Source: an uncultured Alphaproteobacteria bacterium (GTDB lineage Bacteria; Pseudomonadota; Alphaproteobacteria; Rs-D84). From it: 59,080 bases of DNA. Shown one piece after another: positions 320 through 29,534 of the stretch. Where the stretch lies: positions 1 to 59,080 of the forward strand of contig CALXLO010000005.1 of assembly GCA_944389235.1 (NCBI GenBank), written 5' to 3'. The notes under the pieces were generated by a model, which had not been told where the DNA came from, made no database searches, and saw nothing but the letters and a program-made list of their open reading frames with translations. The stretch's first letter is position 1. The number at the start of each line of letters is the position of its first letter. The translations under genes were made by a program, and so were the position numbers.

Positions 320-512
320 AAAAAACAGCCACACTTCGCGCCAGGCTTCATGGGGTACTAAAATTTTTTAATCTTACCGGGCAAATTGAATATAAATTGA
401 TTTACATTTTACTTTTATAAAATCTAATGGTATGATTTTGATTGGCAAGGGCGTATTGCTCTTGCTGGGGCTTTTCAACCCTGCGTATAGCGTCAGAGTA
501 TGACGATACAAT
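320..512. other. Intergenic spacer, no gene recognised
   Basis: The spacer between repeat copies 1 and 2 is AT-rich, with no ORF having a convincing start, no tRNA and no clear hairpin terminator. Translations across it are short and look like noise. Confidence 0.5.
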
Positions 513-805
513 ACTCCAACTTTTTGGTTGGAGTGCGGTGAATATATCGAATAAACCGCGCAATTCTATACGATTGTTGAAAAACTCCAACCACCTGCAT
601 TTTTCTGGTGGTTTTTGTTTATATTTTTATGGGGGTTAACATGGCAAAATCAAAAACCAAAGCAGAACTATTTGACGAATTGCTAAACGCATATTGTACA
701 TTGTTTACTTTGCTGGAACGCATAAAGCCAATCGTAATGGCGGAACTGGAATCAAAACAGCGCGCATATTCATCAAAAAATTTCCAAAATTCAAGATTAA
801 AATGA
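513..805 (+). repeat. Dispersed repeat with 54-aa ORF, copy 2
   Basis: The copy opens with the hairpin ACTCCAAC-loop-GTTGGAGT (513-534), then a diverged stretch, then CTCCAACCACC with a second hairpin, then the ORF. The same order, read on the minus strand, is present at 26518-26920 (ACTCCAAC...GGTTGGAG, GAATATAT, GAATAAA, CGCAATTCT, CTCCAACCACC). The 5' part therefore belongs to the repeat but diverges faster than the ORF. The 3' tail of copies 1 and 3 is missing here. It is replaced directly by the intrinsic terminator at 811-838. Confidence 0.75.
641..805 (+). CDS. Small conserved repeat-borne protein, copy 2 (54 aa, unknown)
   Basis: This is the second copy of the 54-aa ORF (MAKSKTKAELF...SRLK), starting at the ATG at 641 behind the same GGGGG-containing leader. 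It differs from copy 1 in a few positions, including E for G at residue 9 and the C-terminal residues before SRLK. It is followed within 15 bases by a strong terminator shared with the convergent ABC permease gene, so it can be the end of a short transcript. Function unknown. Confidence 0.55.
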   Translation: MAKSKTKAELFDELLNAYCTLFTLLERIKPIVMAELESKQRAYSSKNFQNSRLK

Positions 806-26539: not shown

Positions 26540-26834
26540 GTGCATGGGGATGCATCCCGCAGCGCAGGGGCGTTTGATAATAGTTCAACTTAGTATAGCT
26601 GTTTTTTTTACAAAATTTATTTTAATCTTGAATGTTTGAATTTTGGGGATGAATATGCGCGTTGTTTTGATTCCAGTTCTGCCATTACGATTGGCTTTAT
26701 GCGTTCCAGCAAAGTAAACAATGTACAATATGCGTTTAGCAATTCGTCAAATAGTTCTGCTTTGGTTTTTGATTTTGCCATGTTAACCCCCATAAAATAT
26801 AAACAAAAACCACCAGATAAAAACACAGGTGGTT
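26518..26834 (-). repeat. Dispersed repeat with 54-aa ORF, copy 3 (inverted)
   Basis: Reverse complement of 1-319, nearly identical throughout, including the 3' tail with GGGATGCATCCC and the GCCC-GTT-GGGC hairpin. Weaker similarity to copy 2 continues upstream to 26920 and ends at a CTCCAAC/GTTGGAG hairpin (26891-26914) followed by T5. The copy abuts tRNA-Val(UAC), a typical landing place for mobile DNA. Confidence 0.85.
26617..26781 (-). CDS. Small conserved repeat-borne protein, copy 3 (54 aa, unknown)
   Basis: 54 aa, MAKSKTKAELF...SRLK, with the C-terminus of copy 1 (SSPKFKHSRLK) and most internal residues of copy 2. ATG at 26781 has the same GGGGG leader. Frame intact. No known family; role unknown. 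Confidence 0.55.
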   Translation of the reverse strand: MAKSKTKAELFDELLNAYCTLFTLLERIKPIVMAELESKQRAYSSPKFKHSRLK

Positions 26835-27009
26835 GGAGGCTTCTAACAATTAGCAAGAATTGCGACTTTTATTCAATATATTCAAAGTCCCTCCAACCAC
26901 GAATTGGGTTGGAGTTTTTATCGTCCCTGCGGACGCTTGCTATTGGATTAGAAGTATCCAGCGACAGAACACCCGTCGCAAAAATTATTATAGTCAGCAT
27001 AATTTAATA
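26835..27009. other. Spacer between repeat copy 3 and the tRNA-Val array promoter
   Basis: Holds the diverged upstream part of the repeat and a CTCCAACC...GGTTGGAG hairpin followed by T5 (26891-26919), which can act as a plus-strand terminator. No gene recognised. Confidence 0.5.
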
Positions 27010-27037
27010 TTGCAATCTGAAAATTGTTTGGTATAAT
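27010..27037 (+). promoter_or_regulatory. Probable promoter of the tRNA-Val array
   Basis: TTGCAA, 16 bases, TATAAT (27032-27037). It matches the pnp promoter in both hexamers and spacing. The first tRNA-like unit begins 20 bases later. Confidence 0.6.
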
Positions 27038-27057
27038 CGCCAAGTTAAAATAGTTTT

Positions 27058-27121
27058 GGTGGTTAGTTCAGTGTAAATATTGTCGATTTCATGGACAAAT
27101 CACCGGAACAAAGGCAGTTTT
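27058..27121 (+). pseudogene. Truncated tRNA-Val-like unit A (64 bases)
   Basis: Starts GGTGGTTAGTTCAGT and ends with the same 40-base tail (CATGGACAAATCACCGGAAC...) as units B and C, but lacks the anticodon arm. No encoded CCA and no intact T-loop. Confidence 0.7.
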
Positions 27122-27210
27122 GGGTGGTTAGTTCAGTTGGTCAGCCGCGTGCGTTGACATCGTAAAGGTTGTCGGTTTCATGGACAAATCACCGGAACAA
27201 AGGCAGTTTT
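27122..27210 (+). pseudogene. Degenerate tRNA-Val-like unit B (89 bases)
   Basis: GGGTGGTTAGTTCAGTTGGTCAG, then an anticodon arm GTGCG-TTGACAT-CGTAA retaining GAC with one mismatch and one wobble. The T-arm is destroyed (no TTCGA). GGTGGTT can still pair with AATCACC as a 7-bp acceptor, but the base after it is G and no CCA follows. Identical to unit C. Confidence 0.75.
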
Positions 27211-27299
27211 GGGTGGTTAGTTCAGTTGGTCAGCCGCGTGCGTTGACATCGTAAAGGTTGTCGGTTTCATGGACAAATCACCGGAACAAAGGCAGTTTT
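27211..27299 (+). pseudogene. Degenerate tRNA-Val-like unit C (89 bases)
   Basis: Same 89 bases as unit B without a visible difference, so the duplication is recent or kept identical. Runs straight into the functional tRNA-Val. Confidence 0.75.
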
Positions 27300-27376
27300 G
27301 GGTGGTTAGCTCAGTTGGTTAGAGCGTTACGTTGACATCGTAAAGGTCGTTGGTTCGAGTCCAATACCACCCACCA
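27300..27376 (+). tRNA. tRNA-Val (GAC)
   Basis: Acceptor GGGUGGU/ACCACCC, then A and encoded CCA. Anticodon arm UUACG-UUGACAU-CGUAA gives GAC. T-arm GGUUCGAGUCC intact. Preceded in tandem by three degenerate copies, probably on the same transcript. Confidence 0.96.
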
Positions 27377-27521: not shown

Positions 27522-29534
27522 ATGACAACCAATAACAAAAAACAAAAATATTTAATTACATCTGCATTGCCGTATGTAAATGGTGATTTACACCTGGGGC
27601 ATTTGGTGGGATGTTGGCTGCCATCGGATATATATGCGCGTTTTTGCCGCGCGCGCGGACGCGATGTATTATACATCTGTGGCGCAGATGAACATGGCAC
27701 ACCCGCCATCGTTGGTGCAAAAAAAGAAGGATTGCCCGTATTAGAATACAATAATAAATATTATGAAAAGCATCTGCGGGCTGTCCATGATTTTGAATTG
27801 TCTTTTGACCTGTATGGTCGCACGCACACGCAATTACAAGAAAAACTGATTCACGAATTATTTAACAGATTAGATGCACTGGGATTAATAGAAGAACGCG
27901 AAACCATGCAGCCTTTTTCCGTTGATGACAATATGTTTCTGGCCGACAGGCAATTGGTTGGGACATGTCCAAAATGTGGATATGAAAACGCCAGTGGCGA
28001 CCAATGCGACAGATGCAGCGCAACATACGACGCATCTGAATTAATCAATCCACGCAGTACAATTTCTGGCAGTACAAATATTGAAATACGCCCAACAAAA
28101 AATTTATTCTTTTTGGCTTCGCGCGTCCAAGATGTATGGCGTAAATGGCTGGGGACACACGCACCAAAATGGTCGCGTACAGCGGCGGCAATTGCTGCGG
28201 GTTGGGCAAACGACGAACTGCGCGACACATCAATAACGCGTGATTTACCATGGGGAATACCTGTAAACAAGCCTGGATATGAAAACAAAGTTTTCTATGT
28301 CTGGTTTGATGCACCATGGGGGTATGTTTCTATATCCCAGGCCGCAACTGATGATTGGGCATCATGGTGGAAAAACGACGATACATATTATGCGCAATTT
28401 ATGGGCAAAGATAATGTTAAATTCCATGCTGTATTCTTTCCAGAACAACAACTGGCGATAAATGATGGATGGAAAACTGTTGATATGCTGAAATCTATGA
28501 ACTTTTTGAACTTTGAAGGTGGCAAATTTTCAAAATCGCAACATCGTGGGGTGTTTTTAGAAGACGCTATTTCAATTGCACCGGCCGATGCATGGCGGTA
28601 TGCACTGGCGGCATCTGCGCCGGAAACAGATGATACTGATTTTACTTTTTCGCGCTTTGCAGATATTGTCAATAAGGACCTGAATGGGATGCTGGGGAAT
28701 TTTGTGTCCCGCGTTTGTAAATTAACCGCCAAACACTTTGGCGACACTGTACCGGCGGCCAGTACGCATGATGCAGAACTGGAAAAACAAATAAACGAAA
28801 AATTGCGCGAATTAACAGATGCGCTGGACGCGTGCGAATTTCGTGCAGCTGTCTTTGCACTGCGTGGGCTGTACGCGATTGGTAATGAATATATGACACT
28901 GCAAGAACCATGGACACTGGTAAAAAATGGCAATCTGGGGGCAGGGGGCGCAGTATTAAATCAATGTATGCAATTAATTGATTTATATGCACGCGTGTCG
29001 GCACCGTTTATACCAAATGCCGCAGAAAAAATGCGCCAAATATTTAATGCAGATTTAGACTTGTCTTGGCCGATTCGATACGAACAACGCATTGCAAACG
29101 GGGTAAAATTTACTGTTCCGGAAAATCTATTTACACGAATCGATGACGAAACGGTCGCAAAATTAACTGATAAATATGCACCAAAATCAGACAACGCACC
29201 CAAACCTGTTACGGCAAAAATTATTGATGTAAAAGACCACCCAAGCCGTGAAAATCTGCATATTCTGACCGTTGATGATGGAACCAATCACCAATTACAA
29301 ATCGTATGCGGCGCACCAAATGTTCGCCCTGGAATGATTGGCGTATTGGCACCAGTTGGAACAAAACTTGTTTGTACAAAAAAACCTATTGTCAAAAAAA
29401 CAGTTGCAAACATAGAATCTTTTGGTATGATGTGCAGCGCGAAAGAGTTGGGCGTGGGCGACGATGGTGAAAACTTATTGGAATTGGATTCTGATACACC
29501 CGTCGGTCAAGTATACGAAAATATTAAAAAATAA
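27522..29534 (+). CDS. metG: Methionyl-tRNA synthetase
   Basis: Charges initiator and elongator tRNA-Met. 670 aa. HIGH motif as HLGH in NGDLHLGHLVG, Zn-knuckle with two CxxC pairs (CPKCG and CDRC), KMSKS as KFSKS. The C-terminal about 105 residues form a Trbp111/EMAP-type tRNA-binding domain (ENLHILTVDDG, VCGAPNVRPGMIGVLAPVG), which promotes dimerisation. Length normal for this form. Start ATG with GGGG nine bases upstream. Confidence 0.96.
   Translation: MTTNNKKQKYLITSALPYVNGDLHLGHLVGCWLPSDIYARFCRARGRDVLYICGADEHGTPAIVGAKKEGLPVLEYNNKYYEKHLRAVHDFELSFDLYGRTHTQLQEKLIHELFNRLDALGLIEERETMQPFSVDDNMFLADRQLVGTCPKCGYENASGDQCDRCSATYDASELINPRSTISGSTNIEIRPTKNLFFLASRVQDVWRKWLGTHAPKWSRTAAAIAAGWANDELRDTSITRDLPWGIPVNKPGYENKVFYVWFDAPWGYVSISQAATDDWASWWKNDDTYYAQFMGKDNVKFHAVFFPEQQLAINDGWKTVDMLKSMNFLNFEGGKFSKSQHRGVFLEDAISIAPADAWRYALAASAPETDDTDFTFSRFADIVNKDLNGMLGNFVSRVCKLTAKHFGDTVPAASTHDAELEKQINEKLRELTDALDACEFRAAVFALRGLYAIGNEYMTLQEPWTLVKNGNLGAGGAVLNQCMQLIDLYARVSAPFIPNAAEKMRQIFNADLDLSWPIRYEQRIANGVKFTVPENLFTRIDDETVAKLTDKYAPKSDNAPKPVTAKIIDVKDHPSRENLHILTVDDGTNHQLQIVCGAPNVRPGMIGVLAPVGTKLVCTKKPIVKKTVANIESFGMMCSAKELGVGDDGENLLELDSDTPVGQVYENIKK

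Follow-up and report, generated by a model that had tools for sequence, protein, structure and literature searches.

Layout of the locus and nature of the units

The locus was analyzed in a window of 59,080 nucleotides, the whole stretch of DNA under study, which belongs to a genome of 823 kb. Among the relatives retrieved by a metG scan are records bearing the name Candidatus Enterousia, and the host of the window is a Ca. Enterousia-like alphaproteobacterium. The genus Enterousia is assigned to the order Rs-D84 of the Alphaproteobacteria and has reduced gut genomes, in which pseudogenes are reported not to have accumulated (PMC12306168). A promoter, three units (A, B and C), tRNA-Val(GAC) and metG follow one another head to tail (Table 1), and the coordinates of the layout described in the earlier note, namely a TTGCAA-N16-TATAAT promoter, a truncated unit and two identical 89-nt units ahead of tRNA-Val(GAC), were confirmed.

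Table 1. Positions of the features discussed (window coordinates unless a locus is named)
Feature	Positions	Strand	Remarks
Sigma-70 type promoter TTGCAA-N16-TATAAT	27010..27037	+	Upstream of array and tRNA; TTGCAA 27010-27015, TATAAT 27032-27037
Unit A, truncated element, 65 nt (64 from first GG)	27057..27121	+	Covariance model, 15.7 bits
Unit B, full element, 89 nt	27122..27210	+	Covariance model, 92.6 bits; body 27122-27193, linker 27194-27210 with TTTT at its end
Unit C, 89 nt	27211..27299	+	Identical to unit B (repeat comparison); body 27211-27282, linker 27283-27299
Intact tRNA-Val(GAC) with CCA	27300..27376	+	ARAGORN; Rfam, 71.4 bits
metG (methionyl-tRNA synthetase)	27522..29534	+	Conserved downstream neighbour used as anchor; outside the element
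~185-nt structured RNA	26808..26992	-	
~185-nt structured RNA	429..613	+	
~185-nt structured RNA, locus L094	248..1387	-	

The promoter boxes are separated by 16 nt and match the consensus at 10 of 12 positions. Two promoter-like sites were observed in the region, with 1.1 expected from shuffles. Of about 60 relatives, nearly all have the TTGCAAT...TATAAT box at the equivalent position. In carriers it precedes the element by ~9-22 nt, and in most non-carriers it stands at this distance before the tRNA itself. As sequence evidence for a promoter, this recurrence is stronger than the shuffle count. A scan for terminator-like sites detected no intrinsic terminator between the promoter and the tRNA. 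Because the promoter stands in front and no terminator intervenes, the units and the true tRNA-Val are probably carried on one transcript, as the earlier note had proposed.

The repeats of the array, 105 nt at a spacing of 89 nt, are far above chance. Unit A has lost its middle third, comprising the anticodon arm and an AGCCGCG block, and retains the basal hairpin, and units B and C retain a TTGACAT loop. None of the three units carries CCA, and the G1 of the units has no C72 partner; pairing of the stem begins at G2 (GGTGGTT/AATCACC, with one G-U). This agrees with the earlier description of degenerate tRNA-Val copies without CCA, of which B and C keep the anticodon loop and a pairable stem. 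ARAGORN called only the last copy as a tRNA and missed the units. Scoring with Infernal-type models, which had been suggested before, gave the same picture: the units matched neither the tRNA family (RF00005) nor any other Rfam family at E≤1, and the true copy scored 71.4 bits.

The elements are homologous to tRNA-Val, from which they differ at a mean of 15 positions. They retain the anticodon arm along with the 5' half, but the 3' D-strand has given way to a common block, AGCCGCG, and the T-loop and 3' T-strand are replaced. The T-arm is destroyed in all elements but that of locus L122 (genome G152, ~1490-1580), where it is intact and the acceptor stem is rich in G-U pairs. The 3' half of the L122 element is unlike the tRNA of its own species and is therefore no fresh conversion product; this element is an intermediate form that helps to establish in which order decay or refolding proceeded. 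The anticodon of the 28 variants is GAC in 21, GAU in 6 and AAC in 1, so that GAC is not the kept feature that it had been taken for. Given the lost tRNA features and the GAU and AAC anticodons, we infer that the units are tRNA-Val derivatives and do not decode.

The first 71 nt of tRNA-Val(GAC) are identical in the copies of most relatives. A subclade comprising L035, L036, L040 and allied loci has a tRNA-Val(GAC) with five substitutions, which form a TCACG...CGTGG anticodon stem and GAGCCC in the T-arm; the elements of this subclade share the 5' anticodon-stem change and not the 3' changes. Two candidate roles for the units were rejected. A valine synthetase decoy was discarded on the ground that C36, which we take to be an identity base for this enzyme, is altered in 6 of the 28 variants, and a T-box-like control on the ground that specifier and antiterminator are absent.

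Distribution, loss and amplification in the genus

A covariance model of the element was built from 19 of the units located on the metG tree. When the genus was searched with this model, 32 of the 156 genomes proved to carry the element, a carrier being a genome with places above 62 bits; the elements scored 64-101 bits, against 60.4 bits for the true tRNA-Val(GAC). A strict pattern applied to 201 genomes of the order matched in 26, all of one genus, and in 0 of the 45 other genomes. In every retrieved locus with a contig long enough, the element lies directly upstream of tRNA-Val(GAC). No dispersed copies were found when the genomes of the order were scanned by the pattern and the 156 genus genomes by the model, and viral contigs gave 0 matches. 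Within the window's genome, none of 32 distinct tRNA genes besides tRNA-Val(GAC) has comparable adjacent copies, in a check that covered 33 distinct genes and left out ~7 of the 40 tRNAs. Pure decay, one of the options offered in the earlier note, is disfavoured by this distribution, in which the element with its AGCCGCG block is neither absent nor random in relatives.

Dozens of relatives have tRNA-Val(GAC) ahead of metG, and a unit stands between promoter and tRNA in 22 of the 63 scorable rows of the metG tree. The carriers on this tree have one copy each, except for two in L046 and three in the window, and two tandem copies are also present in G176 and G146. In the genus-wide count, tandem copies occur in three genomes, including the window's, and the remaining carriers have a single copy. 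Copy numbers may be underestimated, because the array of G146 is cut off by the end of its contig and 89-bp repeats may be collapsed in assemblies of short reads. The array of the window is a local amplification. The identity of B and C, previously attributed to recent duplication or selection, favours recent local duplication; selection is disfavoured by the single copy of most carriers.

Presence and absence of the element require 13 changes on the metG tree, 11 of them forced by well-supported branches, and presence is clustered, with only 1 of 500 shuffles giving a count as low. We read this pattern as a probable single origin followed by many losses, since the units share AGCCGCG and nearly all have a wrecked T-arm. 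Frequent loss indicates that the element is not essential. In the close pair L067 and L072, the former carries the element and the latter has an empty site with the same promoter and spacer, and some non-carriers, such as L028, have linker-like remnants. Direct repeats of GGGTGGTTAG account for the precision of the losses as well as for the tandem gains.

This history would also be produced by a neutral relic, that is, a dead tRNA-Val duplicate kept similar through recombination with its intact neighbour and repeatedly deleted via the direct repeats, the three copies of the window being a transient expansion. The 13 changes on the tree, the empty site of L072 beside a close carrier, the remnants in non-carriers, the copy number of 1-3 and the decayed state of unit A all favour such a relic, which we regard as a serious though less likely rival to a functional element. 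The report that these reduced genomes lack pseudogene build-up (PMC12306168) argues against it, as do several features of the element's sequence and predicted fold.

Sequence constraint and predicted fold

Among 14 divergent carriers across deep clades, the body of the element has a mean identity of 0.84, the linker 0.59 (0.46 when shuffled), the spacer 0.48 (shuffled, 0.40) and the upstream sequence 0.58 (shuffled, 0.55). The mean at metG fourfold sites is 0.39, near saturation, and the body thus lies well above the neutral level, contrary to what a relic predicts. Identity reaches 0.87 at sites equal to the tRNA and 0.61 at the 13 derived sites. Because the tRNA-equal sites are more alike, copy-correction from the neighbouring tRNA may contribute to the similarity of the elements, and the greater variability of the derived sites is in keeping with a neutral relic. 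However, the AGCCGCG block has undergone 1 change against 12.9 expected (p 3.5e-5) and is present in 27 of the 28 variants despite tRNA-identical flanks, where conversion would bring in the tRNA version. The units of L122 and L125 are also unlike their own tRNA at CGTAAAGG/CGTGGAGG, indicating that conversion is inefficient there. Coevolution of spacer and linker was not significant (p=0.11).

For 25 of the 28 variants, RNAfold predicted a single hairpin without branches that has the anticodon arm at its tip, a hairpin being scored when it made up ≥90% of the ensemble and the count moving by one between sampling runs. The single hairpin appeared in ~30-40% of samples of the true tRNA, in 18% of cases of randomly mutated tRNA-Val and in 53% of column-shuffled alignments, so that the hairpin topology exceeds the random and column-shuffled expectation, against a neutral relic. 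Simulations along the element tree gave a single hairpin in 47% when started from the reconstructed ancestor, with 0 of 100 reaching the observed values, and in 62-74% when started from modern strong hairpins, with 5 of 250 reaching the observed hairpin fraction. Hairpin stability alone is not exceptional when simulations begin with a strong hairpin. The RNAalifold consensus contained a weak local helix, GTGGTT/AGCCGC, alone, and no compensatory changes were found in its pairs. Unit A is predicted to fold as the basal hairpin despite its lost centre. Together, the fold predictions give moderate support to the view that the single-hairpin shape is probably under maintenance. A tRNA-like regulatory RNA, as proposed in the earlier note, stays among the options, but the cloverleaf lacking a T-loop gives way to the predicted single hairpin.

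A structured RNA of about 185 nt was observed separately (Table 1). It has a TATAAT-like box ahead, a terminator-like CCACC...GGTGGTTTTTG at its end and a small ORF after it, which begins MAKSKTKAELFDELLNAYCT... in the window and has no Pfam match there; different small ORFs follow elsewhere. The loci examined contain 35 distinct copies, up to 5 in a row at ~240-nt spacing. When 30 non-redundant copies are compared, changes on both sides are seen in 19 of 34 consensus pairs, and this RNA is structurally better supported than the tRNA-Val element. Its copy at 26808-26992 had no Rfam match at E≤1. The conserved 3' end of the RNA (CTCCAACCACC) is complementary to GGTGGTT, the 5' strand of tRNA-Val and of the element; this complementarity may be due to chance, since CTCCAACCACC is also the RNA's own terminator arm.

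Possible origin, role and known counterparts

Our leading interpretation, held with middling confidence, is that the array represents a genus-specific element, once a duplicate of tRNA-Val and now a co-transcribed hairpin leader RNA with a presumed function. A one-time tandem duplication of tRNA-Val(GAC) would have placed a copy between the promoter and the gene. This first copy would have lost its tRNA identity through the AGCCGCG block in the D-arm, the replaced T-loop and 3' T-strand, and the lack of C72 and CCA. The resulting unbranched hairpin of ~72 nt, a computed fold, would then form the 5' leader in the precursor of tRNA-Val(GAC). RNase P cleavage at G1 of the true tRNA would release the leader in the form of a single hairpin or several, presumably with ...UUUU at the end of the released leader in most carriers. 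The three units of the window could have arisen by unequal crossing-over between the copies of GGGTGGTTAG with which the units start, with A as a decayed copy. The hairpin would work mainly in cis by tuning the maturation or yield of tRNA-Val(GAC), with action as a trans small RNA less likely. We tentatively propose that a few mutations converted a tRNA duplicate from a cloverleaf to a conserved hairpin that was recruited as a leader controlling its parent tRNA.

It is improbable that the hairpin, once 5' maturation of the tRNA has freed it, acts in trans, whether by sponging or via the exposed loop UUGAYAU, with a dose that would rise with the number of tandem copies. A discrete predicted hairpin of ~72 nt with an exposed loop, the UUUU before G1 in most linkers, the 2-3 copies in three genomes and the precedent of tRNA-Other of Bacillus cereus, a non-decoding tRNA-like element in a regulatory RNA (PMC3399842), are consistent with such activity, but the element is never found away from tRNA-Val(GAC) and the loop sequence is variable. 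An unconventional working valine tRNA, with a T-arm truncated as in some mitochondrial tRNAs, is very unlikely: the retained 5' half and TTGACAT loop and the intact T-arm of L122 are outweighed by the absence of an encoded CCA, of the G1-C72 pair and of a match to RF00005 or any call by ARAGORN, by the GAU (6/28) and AAC (1/28) anticodons and by the alternative single-hairpin fold predicted. Equally hard to credit is a site-specific integration scar with att repeats left by a mobile element using tRNA-Val; partial copies adjoining a tRNA are generally typical of such scars, but here they lie on the 5' side without the 3' part usually retained, nothing mobile lies between them, viral contigs have 0 matches, and the promoter distance equals the tRNA position in non-carriers.

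We found no previous description of the element in the literature searched. New bacterial regulatory RNAs are suspected to arise from duplicated tRNA genes, but cases that combine genus-wide homologues with an intermediate and numerous losses are not easily found. Here, across ~156 sequenced species, one locus offers presence, absence, amplification and an intermediate beside the unchanged parent gene, and the gain of an RNA function by a dead tRNA is therefore directly testable. For annotators, degenerate copies beside tRNA genes in reduced genomes are not necessarily debris.

Three known systems resemble the element in part. The rtT RNA (RF00391) of the E. coli tyrT operon consists of tandem repeats on the downstream side that include a 3' segment of tRNA-Tyr and belong to the tRNA transcript. 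In the 3 genomes with tandem units, these units, which also contain tRNA sequence, may likewise share a transcript with the adjacent tRNA; the other carriers have a single unit. Unlike rtT, the element lies upstream and derives from tRNA-Val over its whole length with altered D- and T-arms. It had no match to RF00391 at E≤1. 3'ETS-leuZ is an RNA piece from a 3' external spacer, released by tRNA maturation and possibly with a role of its own. The element would likewise be a spacer piece of a tRNA precursor freed by maturation, but 3'ETS-leuZ comes from the 3' spacer and is not tRNA-derived, whereas the element is a 5' leader and a former tRNA. The pseudo-tRNA tRNA-Other of B. cereus has no role in translation and is thought to be the tRNA-like part of a larger regulatory RNA (PMC3399842). 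Both it and the element are tRNA-derived and, for the element judging from sequence, non-decoding. However, tRNA-Other flanks a genomic island, whereas the element, which is present in many species and in some as a tandem array, is a predicted hairpin leader directly preceding the tRNA from which it derives.
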